Positions 10,693-55,524 of a stretch of DNA of 64,000 nucleotides are shown here, one piece after another. The stretch is from Geothrix sp. 21YS21S-2. Lineage in GTDB: Bacteria; Acidobacteriota; Holophagae; Holophagales; Holophagaceae. A program made the translations under genes and the position numbers. The notes below the pieces were generated by a model. It did not search any database and was not told where the DNA came from. It was given only the letters and a program-made list of their open reading frames with translations. The DNA lies in assembly GCF_030846775.1 (NCBI RefSeq), contig NZ_CP132910.1, positions 2,080,001 to 2,144,000 on the forward strand. Reading direction: 5' to 3'. The stretch's first letter is position 1. The number at the start of each line of letters is the position of its first letter.

Positions 10693-11682
10693 ATGACCCA
10701 CCGCAGGATCATCATCATCGGCACCGGGCCCGCGGGCTACACCGCTGCCATCTACGCCTCCCGCGCCAACCTGCAGCCCCTGGTGCTGGAGGGCGTCCAG
10801 CCCGGAGGCCAGCTCACCATCACCACCGAAGTGGAGAACTTCCCCGGCTTCCGCAACGGCATCCAGGGCCCCGAGCTCATGGAGGAGCTGCGGGCCCAGG
10901 CCCAGCGCCTGGGCACCGAGATCGCCTCGGAGACCGTCCTGTCCGTCGAGCTCGGCCAGCGCCCTTTCAGGCTGGTGACGGAATCCGGCGCCTACACCTG
11001 CGACGCCCTGGTCATCGCCACGGGCGCCTCCGCCAAGTGGCTGGGCATCGGCAAGGACGAGGACCTGGGCCGCAAGGGCGGAGGGGTTTCCGCCTGCGCC
11101 ACCTGCGACGGCTTCTTCTACCGCGGCAAGGACGTGGCCGTGGTGGGCGGGGGCGACACCGCCCTGGAGGAGGCGCTCTACCTCACCAACTTCGCCAGCC
11201 GTGTGCACCTGGTCCACCGCCGGGAAGGCTTCAGGGCCTCCAAGGCCATGCAGGACCGCGCCCTGGCCCACCCGAAGATCACCGTCCACTGGAACCAGGT
11301 GGTCGCCGACCTGCGCACGCGCCGGTTTGAAGCCTCCCCCGGCAACGAGGTGGAGAAGCTCGGGAGCCTCCTGCTCCGTGACATCCGCGACGGGCGCGAG
11401 TCCTCCCTGGCCGTGGACGGCCTTTTCGTGGCCATCGGCCACCGCCCCAACACCGCCTTCCTCCAGGGCCAGCTCCCCGTGGACGCCAACGGCTACCTCC
11501 TGGTGGAAAAGGGCTCGAGCCGCACCGTCATTCCGGGCGTGTTCGCCTGCGGGGACGTGCAGGACAGCGTCTACCGGCAGGCGATCACCGCCGCGGGCTC
11601 GGGCTGCATGGCGGCCATCGACGCGGAGCGCTGGCTCGCGGAGACCTCCACCTCAATCCCCAAGGAGACCACCCATGTCTGA
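10693..11682 (+). CDS. trxB: Thioredoxin reductase
   Basis: A 329-residue NADPH-dependent flavoenzyme. It has the N-terminal FAD-binding GTGPAGYTAAIYASRANL, the redox pair Cys135-Ala-Thr-Cys138 in ACATCDGFF, the NADPH-binding VVGGGDTALEEALYL and the C-terminal FAD motif GVFACGDVQD. It reduces thioredoxin in the cytoplasm. The gene sits between dsbD (10 bases upstream) and trxA (overlapping by 8 bases), so the operon encodes a full electron path from NADPH to the periplasm. Length and motifs match the low-molecular-weight bacterial family. Confidence 0.96.
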   Translation: MTHRRIIIIGTGPAGYTAAIYASRANLQPLVLEGVQPGGQLTITTEVENFPGFRNGIQGPELMEELRAQAQRLGTEIASETVLSVELGQRPFRLVTESGAYTCDALVIATGASAKWLGIGKDEDLGRKGGGVSACATCDGFFYRGKDVAVVGGGDTALEEALYLTNFASRVHLVHRREGFRASKAMQDRALAHPKITVHWNQVVADLRTRRFEASPGNEVEKLGSLLLRDIRDGRESSLAVDGLFVAIGHRPNTAFLQGQLPVDANGYLLVEKGSSRTVIPGVFACGDVQDSVYRQAITAAGSGCMAAIDAERWLAETSTSIPKETTHV

Positions 11683-11989
11683 CCTCGCCTCCCTCACGGA
11701 CGCCGGCTTCCAGGCCGCCATCGCCCAGGGCGTCACCCTGGTGGACTTCTGGGCCCCCTGGTGCGGCCCCTGCAAGGCCCTCTCCCCCGTGCTGGAGAAG
11801 GTCGCCGCCGACCTGGAAGGCCGGGCGAGGATCGTGAAGATGGACATCGACGCCAACCCCGATACCGCCGCCTCCCTGGGCATCATGAGCATCCCGGCGC
11901 TGGTGCTCTTCAAGGACGGCAAGCGCATCGACCAGCGCGGATCCCAGTCCGCGGCCCAGATCAGGGCGCTGATCGAATCGGCGCTCTGA
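11675..11989 (+). CDS. trxA: Thioredoxin
   Basis: A 104-residue classical thioredoxin with the active site WCGPC (Cys30 and Cys33) and the cis-proline loop MSIPALVLF. It accepts electrons from the upstream reductase and can pass them to DsbD. The start is set by AAGGAG seven bases before an ATG that overlaps the end of trxB. It is the last gene of the run; the next gene is convergent. Expected function is certain, although other thioredoxins probably exist elsewhere in the genome. Confidence 0.96.
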   Translation: MSDLASLTDAGFQAAIAQGVTLVDFWAPWCGPCKALSPVLEKVAADLEGRARIVKMDIDANPDTAASLGIMSIPALVLFKDGKRIDQRGSQSAAQIRALIESAL

Positions 11990-12034
11990 GCCCGCTCCGG
12001 CGGACCGCCGAAGGCGCCGCGAATTGCCGGGACC

Positions 12035-12481
12035 TCAGGCGCCCAGCTGGGGCGGCGTCCGGGAACAGATCATCAGCCGGTTCCAGGCGTTGATCTCGGC
12101 AACGGCGAACGCGAGGTCCGCGATCTCCCGGGTCGAGAAATGGGCGCAGGCCTCCGCGTAGACCGCGTCGGGCACGTCGCCGCCCGTCAGGAGCGTGAGG
12201 CTTTCAGTCCAGGCCAGGGCGGCCCGCTCCCGGGCACTGAAGACCGGGGCTTCGCGCCAGGCCACCAGCAGGTTCAACTGGTCGTCGCTGACGCCGTGCT
12301 TGCGGGCCAGGGGAACGTGCATTCCCAGGCAGAACGCGCAGCCGTTGATCTGGGAGGCCCGGACCTTGACCAGTTCCAGGAGGCCCAGGTCCAGGCCGCT
12401 CTTCTGCACGTAGCTGTGCACGCCGAGCATGGCGGCATACCCCGCCGGGGCGGCCTGGGTGATATCGAAACGCTGATGCAT
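12035..12481 (-). CDS. AhpD-like carboxymuconolactone decarboxylase family protein
   Basis: A 148-residue all-helical protein of the alkylhydroperoxidase-D/CMD superfamily. The redox motif CAFCLGMH (Cys-x-x-Cys-x-x-x-His, about residues 49-56) marks it as a peroxidase-type member. Such proteins detoxify peroxides using the two cysteines. The ATG at 12481 is preceded by GGAG at a good distance; the frame extends seven residues further to 12502 without a better site. It is transcribed towards trxA, so the two genes are convergent, and physical closeness to the thioredoxin genes may or may not be meaningful. Confidence 0.85.
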   Translation of the reverse strand: MHQRFDITQAAPAGYAAMLGVHSYVQKSGLDLGLLELVKVRASQINGCAFCLGMHVPLARKHGVSDDQLNLLVAWREAPVFSARERAALAWTESLTLLTGGDVPDAVYAEACAHFSTREIADLAFAVAEINAWNRLMICSRTPPQLGA

Positions 12482-44066: not shown

Positions 44067-46034
44067 TTAGGAAATGTCGTACTGGTGCATCTTCCGGTAG
44101 AGCAGGGGCCGGGAGATGCCGAGGAGCTTGGCGGCCTGGGCCTTGTTGTTGTTGGTGCGGGCCAGGGCGAAGCCGATGGCGCGGCGCTCGGCCTTCTCCA
44201 CCACCTCGTCCAGGGGGCAGTCCTCGTTCTCGCACACATGCCCCGCGCTGGAGCCCACGCCCTGGAGGATCATGCGCACCTGGTCCTCGCTGATGAGGTT
44301 GTCCCGCACGATGGTGAAGGTGCGCTCGAGGACGTTGTGCAGCTCGCGGATGTTGCCGGGCCAGGGATAGTCCTGGAGCAGGTGCTTGGCCCCCTCGGTG
44401 AGGAACTTGGTGGTGATGCCGTGGGTCTTCTGGAGGTCGGCCCAGAAGAGCTTGGCCAGGGCCTTCACGTCCCCTGGGCGGTCCCGCAGGGGCGGGATGA
44501 CGATGGGGATGACGTTGAGCCGGAAGAAGAGGTCCCGGCGGAACTTCTTCTGCTCCACCATGGCCCAGAGGTCCTGGTTGGTGGCGGCGATGACCCGGAT
44601 GTCCACGGGCATGGTGCCTTCGCCCCCCACCCGGTCGATCTCGCGCTCCTGGAGCACCCGCAGGAGCTTGGCCTGGGCCGCCAGGGGCATGTCGCCGATC
44701 TCGTCCAGGAAGATGGTGCCGGTGTCGGCCAGCTCGAACTTTCCGGCCCGGCCGCCCTTCCTGGCGCCGGTGAAGGCGCCGTCCTCGTACCCGAAGAGTT
44801 CGCTCTCGATGAGCGTCTCGGTGATGGCCGAGCAGTTGACGCGCACGAAGGGGCGGCTGTACCGCGGGCTGAGGTTGTGGATGGCGTGGGCGTACACCTC
44901 CTTGCCCACCCCGCTCTCCCCCAGGAGGAGGATGGTGGAGGCGGTGGGCGCGCCCATCATGGCGCGCTCCTTGGCCTGGAGGCTGGTCTCGCAGGTGGCG
45001 ATGATGTCCTCGAAGGAGAAGCGGGTGTCCGAGTGGGGCTTGCCCTTGCTCTTGCGCAGGGCCTCCAGCTCCATCTGGAGCCGCTTGGCCTTGAGGGCCA
45101 GGCGCTGGATCTCCTGGAAGTCCTGGAAGACGATCTTGCCCACGACCCCCAGGCACTTCCCGTCCTTGAAGATGGGAATCCGGCTCACCACGTACTCGTG
45201 GCCGTTGATCGTCTGGATCTCGTCCACCTCGGCCACGCCGGTCCTGGCCACGATGTGCATGCGCGTGTTGTCGATGACCTCGGTGACGGGATGGCCCTCG
45301 GACTGCTCGCGGGTGAGGTGGTGGATCTTCAGGAAGCTCTCGTTCACCAGGGTGATGATCCCCCGGGTGTCCACCACCTGGAGGCCCTCCACGGTGTCCA
45401 GCACGCGCTTGAGGACGTCCACCTCGTCCAGCGCCTCCCGGTAGCCCTGGCTGAGCTGGGCGGTGAGCTCGAACAGCACCAGGGCCCCGATGCCGTCCGC
45501 CCCGGGGCGCACGCGCAGGACCATGAACGCGCGCTGCTGGTTCTGAACGAACCAGAAGGAGACGGGACCCCGGTCCTCCTCCCGGCCCACGGGATGGCCC
45601 GGCAGGAGATCCTCCACGCGCACGTTGACGGCCGGGAAGATGCCCGGGAAGGCCCCGCGCAGGGACGCGTTGGCGAACAGGACCCGCTCCGCGCCGTCGG
45701 TGAGGGCCACCATGGGCTTTTCCGCCCCGGCCAGCATGGAGTGGAGCACCTCCCGCCAGAAGCCTTCCGGCGCGGGCGGCGCCTCCCCGCCGGGGGACGC
45801 CAGGTGTGCGCCCACGGTCTCGTCCGGCCCCCAGGACCCGCCCTGGCGCACCCGGAGGAGATGGCCCATCAGGTCGAAGGTGCCGCAGGGCTGCCCTCCG
45901 GCCCCGGTCACCTCCACCGAGGAGCCGCCATTCACCAGCAGGAGTTCGACAACCTCGTCGACGGCGCAATCACTTGAGACCATGGGAAAGCACGCCGCTT
46001 TTCCATGGGGGGAGTTGATAGGCATGGGAGCCAT
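44067..46034 (-). CDS. Sigma-54-dependent enhancer-binding activator with PAS domains
   Basis: A protein of about 655 residues. The N-terminal 200 residues are poorly conserved and probably PAS-like ([16 protein letters not shown]). A clearer PAS domain is at about 210-320 ([27 protein letters not shown]). The AAA+ domain (about 345-575) has Walker A GESGVGKE, the sigma-54 contact GAFTGA and [10 protein letters not shown] Fis-type helix-turn-helix ends the protein ([21 protein letters not shown]). GAFTGA means that it works with sigma-54, and a -24/-12 promoter lies at 53.08 kb. The start is uncertain: ATGs at 46034, 46025 and 45983 are possible; the first has GAGG upstream. Confidence 0.9.
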
Positions 46035-46090: not shown

Positions 46091-47422
46091 TCAGATCCGC
46101 GCCTTGAACGTGTAGGTCACTTCCATGCGGAAGAAGTAGCCCGGGTCCTGGGCGCCGTAGTAGCTGCCCGGGGTGAGGCGCTCGTAGAGCACGTGGCCCT
46201 TGAAGCTGTCGTTGACCTTGTAGTCGGCCCGCACCTGCGCGAGGCCGCCCCTGTCCTTGCCCGAGCCGAACTGGCCGGCCACGGCCGCGGGGGCCTCCAC
46301 GGCGGACATCTTGTAGTAGGTGGCCCGCAGGTCGAAGTTCTTCGCAGGGGTCACGCGCACTTCCGCCTCGAACATGCCGGTGTTGGTCCAGTAGCCCACG
46401 CCCTTCTCCGCAGGCTGGGAGTAGATGTAGAGCTCGCTCCACTTGGGCCAGCGGCTGAAGACGGGATCCCAGCCGCCGATCTTGTCGGAGTGGGGGTCGG
46501 TTCCCGAGAGGAGGATGTAGCCCAGGGACACCCGGGGCTTCCAGGAGGCCTCGAAGGACTTCTTCACATGGGTGTAGCCGCCGTAGGCGCCGATGTCCTT
46601 GGAGCCCACGTTCTGGGCGGCATTGGCGGCCTGGGTCCCGAACTGGAAGGCCAGCTCGGCGTTGGCCGACCAGCCGCCGCCGAAGCTGCGGTCCACGCGC
46701 CCGCCCAGGGTGGTGAATTTCCGGTCGGGCTGGTACATGGCGTTGTTCCTCGCCCGGTAGTCGTTGGTCTCGGTCTTGTAGACGGCATAGGCGTCGATCG
46801 TGGTGTCCTTGATCTCCTTGCCCGTGTAGTAGAGGGCCAGGGCCTGCTCGTCCCACTCGGTGAGCCGCTGCACCAGGTTGAGGTCGCTGGGGTCGTTCAG
46901 GCGTGGGAGGTACTTGTCCTGCCGGGGATTGGAGATGGCGATGAACTCGAGCCTCGAGGCGGTGCCCAGGTTCCGGGTGAGGTCGATGGCGTTCATGTAG
47001 GCGCAGCGGGAACCGTCCAGGGCGCTGCCGTCCATGAACACGAAGCCCTCGCCCCGCATGATGTCCTGCCGGCCGGCCTTCACGGCCCAGCCCGGCGCGA
47101 AGCGCCAGTTCAGCGACAGCGTCTCGAAGAATATCTGCCGGCCGTTGTAGGGCACGTCGGGGCGGACCACCTTGCGGTTCTCCTGGGCCAGCCCCGCGGC
47201 CAGCTCCAGGTCCTTGCCGATGTTCAGCTGGCCCCAGAGACGGGTGCGCATGCGGTAGTGGAGGTGGCCGTCGTTGATCTTGTCACTGTGGTCGGTGATG
47301 TTGTTCCACTCCTCGGAACGCACGCGCTCCTCGAAGCCCACGTCGAAGGTGGTCGGCGCCTGGGCGGAAAGCGCGAGCGTGGCCGACAGCGCGGTCACAA
47401 GGGTCCTGCAATTCATTCGCAT
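46091..47422 (-). CDS. Outer-membrane channel, alginate-export-like porin
   Basis: A 443-residue beta-barrel protein with a signal peptide (to about residue 22, LSAQA) and many amphipathic strands rich in Tyr/Trp. It ends in the aromatic strand [14 protein letters not shown]. The N-terminal [20 protein letters not shown] and [15 protein letters not shown] are typical of the alginate_exp-type barrels that pass small anionic solutes. GGAG before the ATG at 47422 sets the start. Placed 32 bases after the activase gene, it probably lets the arylacetate substrate (or product) cross the outer membrane. Confidence 0.83.
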
Positions 47423-47454: not shown

Positions 47455-48405
47455 TCAGAAGGGGGTTTCCCAGCCGGTGTAGCAGGTGATGCCCTCTTCC
47501 CTGACCCACTGCGCGTGGGGCTTCAGGTCCTCGAGGGTCATTCCCGGGATGTCCTTGAAGGCATAGTCCTCGCCCACCTGGCGCCACTTGGACTCGCTGA
47601 GCCGGTGGAAGGGGAGGAGGTTGATGACCTCCAGGCCGCACTCCTTGACGAACCGCGCAGTGGCGCGGATGTTGGCCTCGGAGTCGTTCCAGCCCGGGAT
47701 CACCGGGATGCGGATCACGACGAAACAGTCCAGGTCCGAGGCTCCCAGCAGCCTGAGGTTCTTCAGGGTGAGCGCGTTGTCGGCGCCGGTCTTCGCCTTG
47801 TGGGCGACCGGATCCATGTTCTTGATGTCCACGAAGATCCAGTTGAGCAGGGCCGCGGCTTCCATGAAGTAGTCCGAGGGCAGGCTCGCGGTGGTCTCGA
47901 TGCAGGTGTTGATGCGGATCTCCCGGCAGCGCTTGAGGAGGGGGAGCATGAAGTTCCGCTGGAGGAGCGGTTCGCCCCCGGAGAACGTCACGCCGCCGCC
48001 GCTGCCCCAGTAGGCCCGGTCCCGCTGGCAGATGGCGATGATCTGGTCGATGGTGTACCGCTTGCCGCTGAGGACGTTGCCCTCGTGGTAGCAGAACTCC
48101 ACGCATTCGTACGTGGTGCAGTCCGTGCACAGGCTCCGGTCGAAGGTCTCGACGCCGTCGGCCCCAAGGGAGATGGCTCCCTTGGGGCAGGCTTCGATGC
48201 ACTTCCCGCAGTGCTGGCACCGCCCGTCGCGGTGCATGACCACGGGCTTCCTGGAAAGTCCTTCGGGATTGCAGCACCATTCGCAGTTGAAAGGGCATCC
48301 GTTCATGAACACGGTGGTCCGCGTTCCCGGGCCGTCATGCACCGAGTGGGCCTGGATGTCGAAAATGAGCCCGGTGGGCGTGGACGGTTCGGTCGGGATG
48401 GTCAC
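47455..48405 (-). CDS. hpdA: Glycyl-radical enzyme activase for arylacetate decarboxylase
   Basis: A 316-residue radical-SAM enzyme. The SAM cluster motif is CPFNCEWC. Two further cluster motifs (CQHCGKCIEACPKG and CTDCTTYECVEFC) form the ferredoxin-like insert typical of activases for this enzyme class. GGVTFSGGEPLLQ binds SAM. The C-terminal EVINLLPFHRLSESKW closely resembles Clostridioides difficile HpdA. It puts the glycyl radical on the large subunit under anoxic conditions. A GTG at 48405 with AGGAG five bases ahead is preferred over an ATG at 48420 that has no such site. The gene follows the transporter gene by 22 bases. Confidence 0.92.
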   Translation of the reverse strand: MTIPTEPSTPTGLIFDIQAHSVHDGPGTRTTVFMNGCPFNCEWCCNPEGLSRKPVVMHRDGRCQHCGKCIEACPKGAISLGADGVETFDRSLCTDCTTYECVEFCYHEGNVLSGKRYTIDQIIAICQRDRAYWGSGGGVTFSGGEPLLQRNFMLPLLKRCREIRINTCIETTASLPSDYFMEAAALLNWIFVDIKNMDPVAHKAKTGADNALTLKNLRLLGASDLDCFVVIRIPVIPGWNDSEANIRATARFVKECGLEVINLLPFHRLSESKWRQVGEDYAFKDIPGMTLEDLKPHAQWVREEGITCYTGWETPF

Positions 48406-48427
48406 CTTGTCTCCTGGCATTCCGCTG

Positions 48428-49888
48428 CTACTTGTTGAATTCGGGTTCCATGGGCAGCTTGGAGGCCGCCGTCTTCTTGTACTCGGCCTTGAGGGGCAGC
48501 GTGGACGCCAGCAGGATGGAGACGCCGAACGCGCACAGGGCGAACCAGATGGAGTACGTGTACTTGCCGGAGAAGTCCTTCAGCCAGCCGCCGATGTAGG
48601 AGCCGAGGAAGGGTCCGATGCCCATGACGATCATCGTGGCCAGGCCCCAGATCTTGCCCAGGGTCTTGCGGCCGTAGATGGCGCCGGTGTAGCCCACCAC
48701 GCCGCCGGGCACGATGGCCCAGTAGATGGCGAAGATGACGCAGGCGATGTAGGCGAAGATGTCGCCCGAGGGGCTCGCCAGCAGCAGGAGGCAGGCGATG
48801 ACGCCCGTCGCGGGGCCGACGAGGAGCATGATCTTGCGGCCCTTGGCCTCGACGCCCACCTTCTGGACGACCAGGTCGGCCACCTTGCCCATGATGGGCA
48901 TGGAGAAGATGCCGACAAGGCCGATGAGGGCGTAGATGTTGGTGGCCTTCTTGAGGTTGTAGCCCACGTCCTGGGTCCAGTAGCTGACGACCTGGGTCCA
49001 GATGAGGAACTCGCCCATCATGCTGGTGAGGAAGGTGAGGATGCCGCCCCAGATGGCGTACTTGGAGAAGGCTTCGCCGATGGTCCAGTCGATCTCGGCC
49101 ACGGCGGCGGTGCCGGGCGCGGCGGGGATGGCGCCGAAGGGCTTGAGGCCGTAGCGCTCGGGGGACTGCTTGGCCACGAGGACGGCCACCACCAGGGCGA
49201 TGAGGACGATGACGCCCAGGATGGTCATCTGGTAGCGCCAGGCGTGCTCGAGGCCCTGCAGGGCGCTCTTCACGTCGGCCATGGCCAGGACCGCGGGGTC
49301 CTTGAGCTTGGTCGCGATGGCCAGGGCCAGCTGCTTGGGGGCCATGGCCGCGCCGCCCTCGATCAGGGGCCGGATGGCGCCGTCGAGCTTGGCCTGGCTG
49401 GCGGAGAGGGTCGGCTTGACCACCTGGGCCAGGACGAACTGGGCCATGGGGCCGCCGGCGAAGGCGAAGCCCCACATGGTGGCATAGGACTTGCCGATGT
49501 ACCACTTACGAACGGAGACGGTGGAGGTGACCCACAGCATGCCGGTGGCGATGCCGCCCAGGAGGCCGAAGGTGAAGAGGTAGGCCAGGTGGGAATCGAT
49601 GCGGGCCGTCAGGACGAAGCCCAGGGCGCCGAAGACGGCGGCCACGGCATAGACGGGCTTGGTGCCCCACTTGTCCAGGATCATGCCGCTGAAGTAGGCG
49701 GCCACGGCGTAGACGACCATCATGAGCGAATAGCCCAGCGTCACTTCGGCGCTGGTCCACCCCAGGGTGACGGCCATGGGGCCCTTGAGGATGGCGAAGG
49801 TGGCCCGGTACCCGAACAGGCAGAACACGGCCAGCCAGGAGGCGAACACCACGGACCAGCCGTAGAATTTTGCGTTTCTCTCTTCCAT
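48428..49888 (-). CDS. MFS transporter, OFA (oxalate/formate antiporter) type
   Basis: A 486-residue 12-helix transporter. The OFA style is visible in the N-terminal KFYGWSVVFASWLAVFCLFGY, the loop motif DKWGTKPVYAVAA after helix 2, and FAFAGGPMAQFVLAQVV. OFA members exchange carboxylates or import them with protons. The central loop (about 190-290) is long. It lies between the small subunit and activase genes, so the likely cargo is the arylacetate substrate. GGAG eight bases before the ATG at 49888 sets the start. Antiport with a product is unlikely if the product is a neutral phenol, so uptake by uniport or symport is more plausible. Confidence 0.88.
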   Translation of the reverse strand: MEERNAKFYGWSVVFASWLAVFCLFGYRATFAILKGPMAVTLGWTSAEVTLGYSLMMVVYAVAAYFSGMILDKWGTKPVYAVAAVFGALGFVLTARIDSHLAYLFTFGLLGGIATGMLWVTSTVSVRKWYIGKSYATMWGFAFAGGPMAQFVLAQVVKPTLSASQAKLDGAIRPLIEGGAAMAPKQLALAIATKLKDPAVLAMADVKSALQGLEHAWRYQMTILGVIVLIALVVAVLVAKQSPERYGLKPFGAIPAAPGTAAVAEIDWTIGEAFSKYAIWGGILTFLTSMMGEFLIWTQVVSYWTQDVGYNLKKATNIYALIGLVGIFSMPIMGKVADLVVQKVGVEAKGRKIMLLVGPATGVIACLLLLASPSGDIFAYIACVIFAIYWAIVPGGVVGYTGAIYGRKTLGKIWGLATMIVMGIGPFLGSYIGGWLKDFSGKYTYSIWFALCAFGVSILLASTLPLKAEYKKTAASKLPMEPEFNK

Positions 49889-50003: not shown

Positions 50004-50276
50004 TCAGTGGGACTGGTACATCTCACAGGTCGTGGCGACCATGTCGGGATAGGCGAAGAACTTCGGGTCCATCTTGGAGGCCCCGCACACGCCCATCTCG
50101 ATGACGTCCTTGGTGGCGGAGAACTGCTTGCAGCCGGAGCACTTCCTCAGCGGGGCGCAGTTCTCGCACTGTTCGGTGTCGGCCAGGACGATGTTCTTCG
50201 TCAGGTGGCAGATGCCCTTCGACACGTCGATGGCGGCGAAGTTCTGGCAGTCGCGGTGGTTGAGTTTGGTCGTCAT
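50004..50276 (-). CDS. hpdC: 4-hydroxyphenylacetate decarboxylase small subunit
   Basis: A 90-residue iron-sulfur protein that matches HpdC of C. difficile closely in ligand order: His7, Cys10, Cys23 and Cys37 or Cys40 for the N-terminal cluster, and Cys46, Cys49, Cys64 and Cys84 for the C-terminal one. Blocks such as RDCQNFAAIDVSKGICHLTK and CSGCKQF are family-specific. In the known enzyme this chain binds two [4Fe-4S] clusters and is needed for the regulated hetero-octamer. Its presence separates this system from glycyl radical decarboxylases that lack a small subunit. It starts two bases after the large-subunit stop. Confidence 0.93.
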   Translation of the reverse strand: MTTKLNHRDCQNFAAIDVSKGICHLTKNIVLADTEQCENCAPLRKCSGCKQFSATKDVIEMGVCGASKMDPKFFAYPDMVATTCEMYQSH

Positions 50277-50278
50277 GT

Positions 50279-52993
50279 TCAGATCCCTTCGTATTCGGTG
50301 CGGGCGATGAGTTCATCCTGGACGGGCTTGCCGATCTCGACCCAGTACTGGGTGAATCCGGCGACGCGCACCATCAGGTCGCGGTAGTTCTGGGGGTTGG
50401 CCTGGGCGTCCTTGAGCACCTTGGTGTCCACGACGTTGAACTGGATGTGGAAACCGCCCTTGCGCATGTAGGCCTGGCAGAGGTCCAGGAGCTTGCGGGA
50501 GCCGCTGGGGCCCTGGATCGCGCTGGGGTGGATCTTGATGTTGAGCTGGGAGTTCTGGCTCATGGTGTGGTCCCAGATCGCCGCGGAGTTCAGCAGGGCA
50601 TAGACGCCGTTGCGGTCGGTGCCGGGGAAGGCGGAGAGGGAGGCGTCGGCGAAGGTCGTGCCGGCGAGGCGCCCGTCCATGGAGGCGATGGTGGCCGACC
50701 CCATGGCCCCGTGCGTGGACACGGAGATCTGGCAAGGATACATCTTGTGGGCGAACAGCGACTCGTAGTTGGAGCAGTCGGGGCAGAAGAAGTTCTCCCA
50801 TTCGAGCAGGATCTCGTCGGCGAAGGCTTCGTCGTTGCCGTACTTGGGAGCCTGCAGGCACATGAAGTGCAGCTTGTCCCAGGCGCTGGGTCCGTCCTCG
50901 CGCTTCTCCTGGTCGGACAGGGAGAAGGAGTTCACTTCCTTGGCGGTCTTGAAGCCGAAGTTGTCCTTGACGGCCTTCTTCAGGTCCTCGAGGGTGACGG
51001 ACTTGTCGACGTAGACCAGCTTCTTGATGGCGGCCAGGGAGTTGACGGCGGTGATGGTGCCGGCGCTCTCGACGTTGTAGGTGGCGTTGTAGCGGTAGCC
51101 CTTCTCGTCGATGAGGTGGCCGGTGTCAATGCAATCGGGCTTCATGAGCGAGTTGATGACCGCCATGTTGTTCTTGCGCCAGATGTCGTGCTGGACGTTG
51201 TTGGTCAGGGCCAGGACGTCCACGGCCTTCTGCCAGTAGAGCTTGAACTGGTCCCAGAGCTCGTCGTACGTGGTGAACGTGCGGTTGTGCGGCTCGAAGA
51301 CCTTCTGGCCGGTGCGCTGATCCACGCCGTTCCAGAGGACGGCTTCCAGGATCTTGGGCATGGCCAGGAAGTGCACGCCGACGGAGGTGGGCTGGCCGGC
51401 GCCGCCGGGAATGAAGTATTCCTTCCCGTTCAGGTGCAGGGGCTTCCAGCAGCAGGCGGAGGACTCGAGGCAGCCGCCGATGGCCCAGGCGCGGGCTTCT
51501 TCGGGGGTCATGCCCTCGGCGCCGTACTGGTTCATCATGAAGGTCATGGCGCTCTGGTTGTTCATGAACGCGGGATAGCCGACGCCCGTCTTGATGGTCT
51601 CCATGGCCAGCAGGAGGAAGTCCTCGGGGAGCTTCTCGTCGTAGAGCAGCGCCAGGGTGGGCTGAGGCATGGCGTTGGTGAGGCCGGCTTCCAGCAGCAG
51701 GTATTCCAGGCGGTTGCAGGCGTGCTTGCCTTCCTTGGTGAGGCCGCCGATGCTGACGGTGTTGAAGGTGTTGCCGGAGAGCACGCCACCCACGACGCCC
51801 GCGGAGGCGAAGCAGTCGATGGAGGAGATGCTCAGGCGGTAGAGCTCCAGGAGCTCCATGACCTCGTCCTCGGAGATGCGGCCGACGGCGATGTCCTGCT
51901 CGAAGTAGGGATAGAGCACCTGCCCGATGCGTCCGGGGGACATGCCGGAGATGGCGTCTTCGTTCAGCACGGCCAGGTGGAAGGTGAGGATCATCTGGAT
52001 GGCGTCGCGGAAGTCGCGGGGCTTGCCGTGGGCCAGGTACTCGAGGCGCTCGGCGATCTGGTTGTACTCGCGCTTCTGGACGGCGTTCTTCTCCAGCCCT
52101 TCCAGGCGGCGGGCTTCCTTGGCGTAGTTGCTGATCCAGGTGCTGATGCCTTCCAGGACGAGGATGATGGCTTCGTAGTTGAAGAGGCGGTTGGTGCCCT
52201 TGATGCCGTCGCCGTCGGCGCGGCCGGCCACCTTGTCCTTGAGTTCACGGGCGATGGCGAGGAGGCCGTCGATGCCGTACTCGAGGGGGTAGTAGTAGTT
52301 GATGACTTCCCGGCCCTGGGGCAGGGTGTAGCCGGAATCGAACATGCAGAAGATGTTCCGCATGAGGGCTTCCTTCACTTCGTAGTCGGGGACCATCTGC
52401 TCGTACTTGTGGCCCAGGTCGTCGACGGACTTGCCGACCCACTTCTTGGCCAGGTTCAGGAGGCCGGGGACCTCTTCCTGGCGCATGCCGAACTTGCCGG
52501 CCAGGGACACGACCTTGCCGAAGCTCTTGGTGACGTTGCCGCCGCCCGTGCCGAACTTGGAGTGCTCGTCGGCCGAGGCCGAACCGCGCTTGAGGGCGTC
52601 CTGGTAGAGCTCGTCCTCCTTGGCCATGTAGTAGCCCTCGGACAGCCAGGGCATAGGGAAGGACCCGCGGAAGAAGGGGGCCTTGTGCATGACCAGCAGC
52701 TCGCCGGGGTAGATGACCGGGGTCAGGTGGCTGAAGGCGGTCTTCAGGGCCTGGGCGCGGCGGATGACCGGGATCTCCGAATCCAGGGAGAAGTACTCCC
52801 GGGAATACCAGTAGGGGAACTCGTTGTTGGCCGAGGACAGGGTCTGCATGAAGATGTCCTTGAGGGCCTTCACGCGGGCGTGGGGCTCCTTGACGACTTC
52901 CCGGTCCGTGAGGTTCGCCGGGGAATGGCCGCCCGACTCGAAATCCATGGGAATGCCGGCTTCGACCAGCACCTCTTTGAGTTTTTTGGGCAT
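50279..52993 (-). CDS. hpdB: 4-hydroxyphenylacetate-type decarboxylase, glycyl radical large subunit
   Basis: A 904-residue glycyl radical enzyme. The radical site is Gly879 in RVAGFTQYW, and the catalytic thiyl residue is Cys508 in GGCLESS with Glu510 two residues on. His541 and Glu642 match residues that contact the 4-hydroxyl in C. difficile HpdB (His536, Glu637). The reaction is decarboxylation of 4-hydroxyphenylacetate to p-cresol. Phenylacetate decarboxylase, reported from an acidobacterium, is the main alternative, but the retained His/Glu and the small subunit favour the hydroxylated substrate. The start is the ATG at 52993 behind GGAGG; the frame extends 19 residues further without support. 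A sigma-54 promoter lies about 80 bases upstream. Confidence 0.92.
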   Translation of the reverse strand: MPKKLKEVLVEAGIPMDFESGGHSPANLTDREVVKEPHARVKALKDIFMQTLSSANNEFPYWYSREYFSLDSEIPVIRRAQALKTAFSHLTPVIYPGELLVMHKAPFFRGSFPMPWLSEGYYMAKEDELYQDALKRGSASADEHSKFGTGGGNVTKSFGKVVSLAGKFGMRQEEVPGLLNLAKKWVGKSVDDLGHKYEQMVPDYEVKEALMRNIFCMFDSGYTLPQGREVINYYYPLEYGIDGLLAIARELKDKVAGRADGDGIKGTNRLFNYEAIILVLEGISTWISNYAKEARRLEGLEKNAVQKREYNQIAERLEYLAHGKPRDFRDAIQMILTFHLAVLNEDAISGMSPGRIGQVLYPYFEQDIAVGRISEDEVMELLELYRLSISSIDCFASAGVVGGVLSGNTFNTVSIGGLTKEGKHACNRLEYLLLEAGLTNAMPQPTLALLYDEKLPEDFLLLAMETIKTGVGYPAFMNNQSAMTFMMNQYGAEGMTPEEARAWAIGGCLESSACCWKPLHLNGKEYFIPGGAGQPTSVGVHFLAMPKILEAVLWNGVDQRTGQKVFEPHNRTFTTYDELWDQFKLYWQKAVDVLALTNNVQHDIWRKNNMAVINSLMKPDCIDTGHLIDEKGYRYNATYNVESAGTITAVNSLAAIKKLVYVDKSVTLEDLKKAVKDNFGFKTAKEVNSFSLSDQEKREDGPSAWDKLHFMCLQAPKYGNDEAFADEILLEWENFFCPDCSNYESLFAHKMYPCQISVSTHGAMGSATIASMDGRLAGTTFADASLSAFPGTDRNGVYALLNSAAIWDHTMSQNSQLNIKIHPSAIQGPSGSRKLLDLCQAYMRKGGFHIQFNVVDTKVLKDAQANPQNYRDLMVRVAGFTQYWVEIGKPVQDELIARTEYEGI

Positions 52994-53071
52994 CAGATGC
53001 CTCCATAGTGGTGGATGTGTGATTGGCCGGCGATTCGGCCGGAAAAGCATGGGAGTCGGACAACCCAGGTA

Positions 53072-53087
53072 TGCAAACCTGGTGCCA
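53072..53087 (-). promoter_or_regulatory. Sigma-54 promoter of the decarboxylase operon
   Basis: The minus strand reads TGGCAC-CAGGT-TTGCA, matching the sigma-54 consensus with the invariant GG and GC dinucleotides exactly ten bases apart. Transcription would start near 53061, about 68 bases before the hpdB ATG. The sigma-54 activator encoded at 44-46 kb is the obvious partner. Confidence 0.88.
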
Positions 53088-53322
53088 ACCCGAACCCGAT
53101 GTTTTCTATTTGATGAAATATATGATAGTTAGGTATTCAGGAAACGGTCTCCGGACGGAATCCGCGGTGGCGGTTTGGGAATGTGTAACGAATTTTGAGC
53201 CCAAGGATTTTATTTGGGACAAAATCAGCCTTCGGCCAAAATCGGAATTTTCTCGTCAAAATGCATGTAACAAAAGGCTTATCCTAAATTTTGAGATCCG
53301 CCATGAGATGAACGTTTCAAAA

Positions 53323-53340
53323 GCTGACGCACATGTCAGC
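53323..53340. promoter_or_regulatory. Candidate enhancer site for the sigma-54 activator
   Basis: A perfect dyad, GCTGAC-N6-GTCAGC, about 240 bases upstream of the -24 element, within the range used by enhancer-binding proteins. The half-site size fits a Fis-type helix-turn-helix dimer. It is the only perfect dyad of this kind that I see in the region, and it is not proven. Confidence 0.5.
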
Positions 53341-53415
53341 AATTATTACACTCGATTTTAGTGCAATGCCTGCATTCCATGACCAATATAGTATCTGTTC
53401 CGGCAAGGCAGACCC

Positions 53416-54105
53416 ATGTCCCAGACCGAAAATTCCGCCCCGCCCCCGCGTTACGCCGAAGGCCTGCTCCGCTACAAGCATGGCGACCGGGAGGGGGCCC
53501 TCGCCTTCTTCGCGGACCTCGCCCTTTCCCTTCCCGGCGACGCCCAGGCCCACTACCTCCACGGGCTCATCCTGTTCAGGCTGGCGCGGTTCGCCGAGGC
53601 CCAGGCGCCCCTGCGGCGGTCCGCGGACCTCTTCCCCGGGGAGGACGCCCTCATCAAGCTGGCCATGGCCCAGGGCCAGACCGGGAACATGCAGGCCTGC
53701 CTGGCGACCCTGGAGGAAGCCGCGCGCCGGCTTCCCGGGTCCGCCGAGGTTCGCGCCTTCCTGGGCACCACCCTGCGCTCCCTGGACCGGCTGGAGGAGG
53801 CCCTGGAGGCCTACGACGCCGCCCTGGCGAGGAACCCCGACCATGTGCCGGCCCTGTGGGGCCTGGGCCTGGCCCTGGGCATGCGGGACCGCCACGCCGA
53901 AGGCATGGCTGTGCTGCGCCGGGCCATCGCGCTGGACCCCGCCTTCCCTCCCCCCCACTTCCACCTCGGAGTCCTGGCCTGGGCAGCCGGCGACCCCGGG
54001 GAAACCCGCCGGCAGGAGACTCTGCTCCGGACGCTGGCCCCCAGCTACGCCGACCGCCTGGCCCAGATCATGACCCCCGAAAGGACGCCCCATGAAGCCG
54101 TCTGA
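53416..54105 (+). CDS. Tetratricopeptide-repeat protein
   Basis: A 229-residue soluble protein made of about six TPR units (for example AHYLHGLILFRLARFAEAQAPLRRSADLFPG, given here only to its repeat pattern of A-x-G-L and F/Y-A-x-A-x-x residues). No signal peptide or catalytic motif. It overlaps the next gene by 14 bases, and that gene overlaps the following one, so the three form a tightly coupled unit. TPR proteins act as binding scaffolds, and the likely partners are the two downstream proteins. It is divergent from the decarboxylase operon. Confidence 0.82.
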   Translation: MSQTENSAPPPRYAEGLLRYKHGDREGALAFFADLALSLPGDAQAHYLHGLILFRLARFAEAQAPLRRSADLFPGEDALIKLAMAQGQTGNMQACLATLEEAARRLPGSAEVRAFLGTTLRSLDRLEEALEAYDAALARNPDHVPALWGLGLALGMRDRHAEGMAVLRRAIALDPAFPPPHFHLGVLAWAAGDPGETRRQETLLRTLAPSYADRLAQIMTPERTPHEAV

Positions 54106-54664
54106 CCTCGTCACCGAACCCCAGATCCAGCGCATCATCGACCTGGAGTGGCCCATGTTCCACAGCGTGAAGGCGAGCGAACCCGCCGCCTGCCAGGAGG
54201 AGGAGGGCACCTTCCGCCTCATGCGCTGGATGAGCCACTCCGTGCTCCCCCCCGAGGTCCTGGACCCCATGGAAGCCCAGCTGGTGGAGGCCACCGCCCA
54301 GGGCCGGAACCTGATGACCGAGAAGTACGCCCGCATGGCCGGCCAGATCCCGCCCCTCAGGGACACGCCCCTCATCGGCGAGATCGTGGCCGTGGAGGCG
54401 GACTGGATGCTGGCCGTGAACCGGCGCTACCCCCTGACCTTCACGGGGCGCGGCGACCAGTTCAGCACCTACATGGCCGCGGACCTGGAGACCTATTCGG
54501 ACGCGACCCTGCTCCAGTACCACGCCTTCATGCGTTCGGCCCAGGCCGAGGGGCGCAACCTCGTGGAGGAGCGGTACACGAACCTCTTCCAGCGCATGGG
54601 CTGGAGGGACATCGAGGCCAGCGAGGCGCAGACCCGCATGCAGAAGTTCAAGTGCTGCCAGTAG
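54092..54664 (+). CDS. DUF4125 family protein
   Basis: A 190-residue protein matching the DUF4125 family: it opens with LVTEPQIQRIIDLEWPMFHSV, has FRLMRWMSHSVLP, and ends with a block containing NLVEERYTNLFQRMGW. Function is unknown. Many conserved acidic residues and a GEIVAVEADWML helix suggest a helical bundle. The last residues (KFKCCQ) include two cysteines. AAGGA before the ATG is a fair ribosome-binding site. In other bacteria DUF4125 is found fused to or next to DUF4037, as here, so the two probably act together. Confidence 0.82.
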   Translation: MKPSDLVTEPQIQRIIDLEWPMFHSVKASEPAACQEEEGTFRLMRWMSHSVLPPEVLDPMEAQLVEATAQGRNLMTEKYARMAGQIPPLRDTPLIGEIVAVEADWMLAVNRRYPLTFTGRGDQFSTYMAADLETYSDATLLQYHAFMRSAQAEGRNLVEERYTNLFQRMGWRDIEASEAQTRMQKFKCCQ

Positions 54665-55524
54665 GCCTCGGGCTCTCCCGGCGCCTCTTCGAACGCGAGG
54701 TGGCGCCCCGGCTGGGGGGCCTCCCCGCGGCCGCGGGCCTGGTGGGGGAGGGTTCGGACTGCTTCGGCTTCGACGACGAGGTGTCCCGGGACCACGACTG
54801 GGGCCCCGCGGTGTGCCTCTGGTTCCGCCGCGGCGATCCCGCGGCCCCCCTGGAGGCGGTCCTCGCGGACCTGCCGCCGGTCTTCGAGGGGTACCCGGTG
54901 CGCGCCACCCCGGGGCGCACCGGCGTCCTGGAGGCGGGCGCCTTCTACCGCCGCTTCACGGGCCTGGAACGCCCCCCGGAGACCGCCGCGGAGTGGCTGG
55001 CCATCCCCGAGCACGCCCTGGCGGCCTGCACCAACGGCGAGGTCTTCGCGGACCGCTGCGGGGCCTTCACGGCCCACCGGCAGCGCCTCCTGGACCACTA
55101 CCCGGAACCGGTGCGCCTCCACAAGCTGGCCGCGTGCCTGGAGGCGGCGGCCCAGGCCGGGCAGTACAACCTGCCCCGGGCCCTGCGCCGCGGCGACGTG
55201 GTGGCCGCCGCCCTGGCCCAGGCCGCCTTCCTGCGCCACGCCATGGGCGCGGCCTACCTCCTGGCGCGCCGCTACCGGCCCTTCTCCAAGTGGATGTTCC
55301 GGGCCCTCCCGGATCCCGCCCTGGCCGCGGAACTGGAGGGGCTGGCGCGGGCGGGGACGCCAGGGGAGCGCGTCGACCGCGCGGAAGCGGCGTCGGCGAT
55401 CCTCGTCCAGGCTCTGGGCGGCCTCACCGGGAGCCGGGATACGTTCCTCCTGGCCCACGCCCGGGAACTCCGCCAGGGCCTGCCTGGCGAGCTGATGTCG
55501 ATGAACCCGAATGTGGATGGCTAG
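54652..55524 (+). CDS. DUF4037 protein, nucleotidyltransferase-like
   Basis: A 290-residue protein of the DUF4037 type. Near the N-terminus GEGSDCFGFDDEVSRDHDWGP has the G-S plus paired acidic residues of the minimal nucleotidyltransferase fold, so it may transfer a nucleotide to a protein or small molecule. The C-terminal 180 residues are helical. No ATG is suitable; a GTG at 54652 with AGAAG ahead overlaps the DUF4125 gene by 13 bases. The substrate is unknown, and the DUF4125 and TPR proteins are the obvious candidates. Confidence 0.78.
   Translation: MLPVGLGLSRRLFEREVAPRLGGLPAAAGLVGEGSDCFGFDDEVSRDHDWGPAVCLWFRRGDPAAPLEAVLADLPPVFEGYPVRATPGRTGVLEAGAFYRRFTGLERPPETAAEWLAIPEHALAACTNGEVFADRCGAFTAHRQRLLDHYPEPVRLHKLAACLEAAAQAGQYNLPRALRRGDVVAAALAQAAFLRHAMGAAYLLARRYRPFSKWMFRALPDPALAAELEGLARAGTPGERVDRAEAASAILVQALGGLTGSRDTFLLAHARELRQGLPGELMSMNPNVDG

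Follow-up and report, generated by a model that had tools for sequence, protein, structure and literature searches.

A predicted sigma-54 promoter and a linked enhancer-binding activator for the 4-hydroxyphenylacetate decarboxylase operon of Geothrix sp. 21YS21S-2

The operon for 4-hydroxyphenylacetate decarboxylase (hpd) in Geothrix sp. 21YS21S-2 is preceded by a sequence (53087-53072, minus strand) that, judged from sequence, can be taken with near certainty as a genuine sigma-54 promoter, and by far the best reading, in which we place high confidence, is that this predicted promoter is functional and controlled by the activator encoded in the operon itself. Positions are forward-strand numbers in the window, i.e., the whole 64,000-nt stretch of DNA analysed (NZ_CP132910.1, 2,080,001-2,144,000). 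The predicted arrangement recurs in several other bacterial phyla.

The original prediction had placed a near-consensus -24/-12 site 78 bases upstream of hpdB in the right orientation, and a rereading of the minus strand agrees with it exactly. From 53087 to 53072 the strand reads TGGCACCAGGTTTGCA, which fits TGGCAC-N5-TTGCA (-24 TGGCAC, -12 TTGCA) with 10 bases from GG to GC; 78 bases separate it from the hpdB ATG (52993), which is preceded by GGAGG, and the usual -12 spacing puts the predicted +1 at 53061. It is the sole match in the window to TGGCACN5TTGCW with 0 mismatches. On a sigma-54 matrix with weights hand-written from the known consensus, it also gives the top score in the window (17.5 bits), followed by a 13.5-bit intragenic site on the other strand. 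No sigma-70-like promoter was detected upstream of hpdB.

While the matrix scan covered the window, the genome was searched with strict patterns. TGGCAYN5TTGCW has six matches on both strands of the 5.25 Mb genome and its reversed-pattern control none, and all six lie in the correct orientation 32-107 nt before an SD-led start codon. One of them precedes a type IV pilin gene, and type IV pilin genes are classical sigma-54 targets. The gene for sigma-54 itself, rpoN, whose absence had been named as grounds against the prediction, is present in one copy (PF04552, E 3.1e-59), and its product carries an RpoN-box-like C-terminus, ARRTVNKYREECKIPPASRRRRR. The six matches against none for the control, their positions before start codons, and the presence of rpoN together put the match far beyond chance, and suggest that the canonical sigma-54 consensus is used by this genome. 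By arithmetic from the genome density, the chance of an accidental strict site on the right strand in the 150 nt before hpdB is about 1e-4.

Comparison with close relatives provides a footprint of the same region. The gene order of the hpd operon is the same in Holophagaceae UBA692 (L020, HpdB 97% identical) and in a genome of the same genus (L042, 90%), and an alignment of the three Holophagaceae retains TGGCAY-N5-YTTGCA at the same distance with different spacers (CAGGT, CGCCC, and GCGGC). The flanking upstream sequence has diverged, whereas the promoter elements and two islands are conserved. One island, GTGTAATAATTsCTGACA, contains a putative distal activator site (UAS1, 53334..53350, minus strand), TGTAATAATTGCTGACA, of the form TGT-N11-ACA, which is kept in L020 and L042 and centred about 281 bp upstream of the predicted +1. 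The other island, ATTCGTTACAC, is kept in all three Holophagaceae and overlaps a putative proximal site (UAS2, 53184..53200, minus strand), GCTCAAAATTCGTTACA, centred about 131 bp upstream of the predicted +1.

Several further features of this region were considered and rejected. A perfect inverted repeat around the -12 element, CCAGGT-N6-ACCTGG, was tried as an operator, but reaches a p of only about 0.05; the repeat in L020 differs (p again about 0.05), and no significant inverted repeat was found near -12 at the other loci tested. A hairpin in the leader, CCGGC-N6-GCCGG (53024-53041, minus strand), has a counterpart at the same position in L020 and, in the form CCGGCG..CGCCGG, in L042, but its folding is only about 0.5-1 sd better than that of shuffles (z about -0.5 to -1.1). 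A divergent sigma-54 promoter for the TPR and DUF4125 genes was likewise dismissed, as none is seen on the plus strand (best 4.5 bits). These genes diverge from hpdB: behind the TPR gene lie a DUF4125 gene (54092-54664, plus strand) and a DUF4037 gene (54664-55524, plus strand). DUF4125 homologues also occur near the hpd operon in L010, L013, L014, L021 (two), L031, L034, L020, and L042. Since the same pair is present as LrcL/LrcM in a limonene glycyl-radical operon (PMC12583861), it may serve glycyl radical enzymes more generally.

The operon downstream of the predicted promoter has the order hpdB-hpdC-MFS-hpdA-porin-activator, all on the minus strand. It begins with hpdB (50279..52993), encoding the large glycyl radical subunit of the decarboxylase (NF033715, 1546.7 bits, cut-off 1150), and hpdC (50004..50276), encoding its small Fe-S subunit (NF033716, 73.4 bits, cut-off 50; PF18671). 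These are followed by an MFS transporter gene (48428..49888; PF07690), which is present in the operon of most relatives and probably serves the substrate or product, and by a gene for an HpdA-type radical-SAM activase (hpdA, 47455..48420), for which NF033717 is the best match at 370 bits, below its cut-off of 420. The next gene (46091..47422) appears to encode an outer-membrane porin-like protein, judged from its sequence and with no family match; porin-like homologues are present in the hpd operons of L010, L013, L014, L030, and L034. Of these, L030 (JADBLO010000052.1) is filed as a Thermoplasmata archaeon and is probably misbinned, as its hpd operon is of bacterial type and includes the porin-like gene. 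The last gene (44067..46025) encodes a bacterial enhancer-binding protein (EBP; PF13426, PF00158, PF02954). Because the gaps between the operon genes do not exceed about 115 bp and nothing terminator-like was found between them, the activator gene is probably co-transcribed with the hpd operon; a weak sigma-70-like match before it is at chance level.

The activator has 652 aa, comprising an N-terminal region, a PAS domain, a sigma-54 AAA+ domain, and a Fis-type HTH. Its GAFTGA motif, on which the original prediction had relied, was confirmed. PrdR was rejected as its name, as it scores 427 bits against NF041552, below the cut-off of 795. In a tree with 20 paralogues of the Geothrix genome and other linked activators, it belongs to a clade of hpd-linked activators with a support of 97/96; as the tree covered these sequences, the clade may also hold members unlinked to hpd. 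Activators of Neisseriaceae are sister to the core clade, also with 97/96. Members of the clade adjoin hpdB in Desulfovibrionaceae, Desulfobacterium, Telmatospirillum, BRH_c32, and a Bacteroidetes MAG, and where they do, a sigma-54-like site and UAS motifs are nearly always present. In the HpdB tree, all loci with this PAS-type activator fall in one 22-row clade (100/100), with Clostridia and Atopobiaceae outside. Groupings common to the HpdB and activator trees (e.g., Telmatospirillum with L021/L022) suggest joint transfer.

The relatives compared were 28 loci collected by HpdB similarity, together with loci from whole genomes of the phylum. A sigma-54-like site lies 65-111 nt before hpdB in 11 of the 12 loci with a clade activator (p 0.001-0.031, Markov shuffles), some of these 11 being near-copies of each other, and a clear one is found in only one of the 14 loci without a linked clade activator (L011). 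In three loci (L013, L033, and L034), a kinase-like gene and a response-regulator EBP replace the PAS-type activator; in L034 the histidine kinase has Cache and PAS domains and the regulator consists of REC, Sigma54_activat, and HTH_8. A sigma-54-like site is present in L013 and L034 as well. A divergent LysR gene, without a sigma-54-like site, is seen at two other loci, L008 (Coriobacteriia MAG, HpdB 85% identical) and L043 (from the family to which the window belongs), and the Atopobiaceae loci are without the sigma-54 arrangement. Searches of the phylum of L021 and the class of L013 returned no further hpdB-bearing genomes.

Nine loci added after the motifs and the matrix had been fixed served as a held-out set. 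The three from Desulfovibrionaceae with a PAS-type activator (L097-L099) have a site between -71 and -76; in L101, where a different EBP is encoded in the vicinity, TGGCACGCGGCTTGCT lies at -101. None of the four clostridial loci has a linked clade member, a UAS match, or a convincing site, the best being 7.2 bits (p 0.038) in L093. In one of the loci, L095, a PAS/AAA+/Fis-like regulator with GGFTGA, not GAFTGA, is encoded after the clostridial hpd operon (reverse complement 10822-12186); there is no sigma-54 site before its hpdB, and the regulator is a possible candidate for a clostridial hpd regulator. A number of relatives keep the -24 element and have GT instead of GC at -12 (L009, L012, L013, L014, L021, and L022, and the held-out L097 and L099), which is off-consensus and counts against the promoter reading. 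L098, of the same group as L097 and L099, has GC.

The UAS motif, TGTnAC-N5-GTnACA, came to light in L021 and L022, where it forms a perfect palindrome, and was searched with at most 2 mismatches. With these two loci excluded, it has 16 matches in 3.6 kb of upstream sequence vs. 0.62 expected from the remaining sequence of these loci, while loci without the PAS-type activator have two vs. 0.81 expected; as the loci are partly related, Poisson values overstate the enrichment. The held-out L097-L099 contain seven matches vs. about 0.24 expected. In both locus sets, distal sites are mostly about 175-263 bp and proximal sites mostly 103-125 bp upstream of -24, and the distal site is 258-263 bp upstream in L021, L022, L020, L042, L031, and the window. 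Within the window, UAS1 differs from the 10-position motif at 2 positions, and nothing else in the genome comes within 2 mismatches of TGTAATNNTTGCTGACA; UAS2 is weak and differs at 3. We infer that 53334-53350 and 53184-53200 are putative activator-binding sites.

The distribution of rpoN was compared with that of the site. It was detected in all 13 site-bearing genomes counted and not detected in seven of the 12 siteless ones, among them all five Atopobiaceae genomes tested (Fisher p 0.0016, uncorrected for relatedness among genomes). One exception is L010 (genome G398, a MAG), which has UAS motifs and an activator with an intact GAFTGA, is without a consensus promoter, and has no detected rpoN; this may reflect a missing contig in an incomplete MAG, or a decaying system.

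Based on these features, RpoN-RNA polymerase would bind the -24/-12 elements and form a closed complex that waits there. The activator, product of the last operon gene, would occupy UAS2 and UAS1, some 130 and 280 bp upstream, reach the polymerase by looping, and use ATP hydrolysis to open the promoter once the sensor region of the activator perceives the substrate, for which 4-hydroxyphenylacetate or a related arylacetate is the likeliest candidate. From the function of the operon, 4-hydroxyphenylacetate is probably the inducer. Given the probable co-transcription of the activator gene, the circuit would amplify itself.

Other readings of the same sequence differ in either the activator or the promoter. 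Since the activator has 25 matches genome-wide, counting itself, and many EBPs are known to act on distant genes, a different EBP such as a nitrogen or carbon regulator could activate the sigma-54 promoter while the linked one regulates something else. We regard this as unlikely, as a single activator clade is linked to hpdB across phyla, UAS motifs occur where the PAS-type activator is present and hardly elsewhere, and UAS1 is unique in the genome. It is less likely still that transcription starts from a sigma-70-type promoter as in Clostridioides difficile and that the -24/-12 sequence matches by chance or is left over as a relic. In that organism a SigL-like site is wrongly spaced and inactivation of sigL had no effect (PMC7925072), whereas the Geothrix site has the correct spacing, is selectively conserved in L020 and L042, belongs to a pattern that is rare genome-wide and unique in the window, and recurs in many relatives, with no sigma-70-like alternative upstream of hpdB; a chance match was dismissed on these grounds. 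The least probable reading, to which we give very little weight, is that RpoN polymerase binds here unproductively, e.g., blocking or tuning another promoter. In other bacteria RpoN is known to occupy silent sites as well, but the putative activator sites and the distance to the start codon are as expected for a productive promoter. A functional sigma-54 promoter under the operon's own activator thus remains the preferred reading.

Among known systems, the hpdBCA operon of C. difficile encodes the same enzyme (HpdB, HpdC, and HpdA). It is transcribed from a single sigma-A-type promoter, P1, and its induction by 4-hydroxyphenylacetate needs an upstream inverted repeat and an unidentified positive regulator; its SigL-like site has an N4 spacing, and inactivating sigL did not lower expression (PMC7925072). 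The view that the clostridial enzyme is not under sigma-54 control is thus in line with published data. Neither the published C. difficile primer sequence nor the SigL-like site has a match among the loci compared. In Geothrix, the promoter predicted from sequence is instead of sigma-54 type with a linked EBP. The suggestion of a distinct regulatory design therefore holds with respect to C. difficile, but not more broadly, as the arrangement recurs across phyla and, for glycyl-radical-enzyme operons in general, control by sigma-54 and an EBP has already been predicted in Desulfovibrio (PMC4641369). There, DVU2275 and DVU2827 are the EBPs predicted for two glycyl-radical operons with a pyruvate formate-lyase annotation. 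As in Geothrix, a glycyl-radical-enzyme operon is preceded by a sigma-54 promoter and predicted EBP sites and has a linked EBP, but the operons and their transporters are different, and 4-hydroxyphenylacetate is unmentioned in the text of PMC4641369 that was searched. The closest named family of the Geothrix activator is PrdR, one of the PAS-type EBPs of Clostridiales with UAS of the form TGT-N10-12-ACA (PMC6615313), similar to TGT-N11-ACA; PrdR, however, controls proline reductase, and hpd is unmentioned in the PMC6615313 reconstruction. In a spelling-dependent and non-exhaustive literature search, no paper was found with both "4-hydroxyphenylacetate decarboxylase" and "sigma-54".

We tentatively propose, as a scenario that could well turn out otherwise, that a cassette consisting of the PAS-type activator, its two enhancer sites, and the sigma-54 promoter had a single origin together with a non-clostridial hpd branch, moved with that branch among several phyla, and was lost or replaced by a two-component sigma-54 activator or LysR in some lineages, with the PAS domain acting as a direct sensor of 4-hydroxyphenylacetate. 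Across the loci compared, one enzyme operon is under at least three kinds of putative control (one-component sigma-54, two-component sigma-54, and LysR), and the sigma-54 arrangement is absent in hosts without rpoN. The decarboxylase makes p-cresol, which is toxic, and its regulator has yet to be named in the best-studied p-cresol producer, while here a candidate regulator, a predicted promoter, and putative binding sites can be named. These candidates cover a wide set of environmental bacteria, and would open the p-cresol switch to reporter and deletion experiments.
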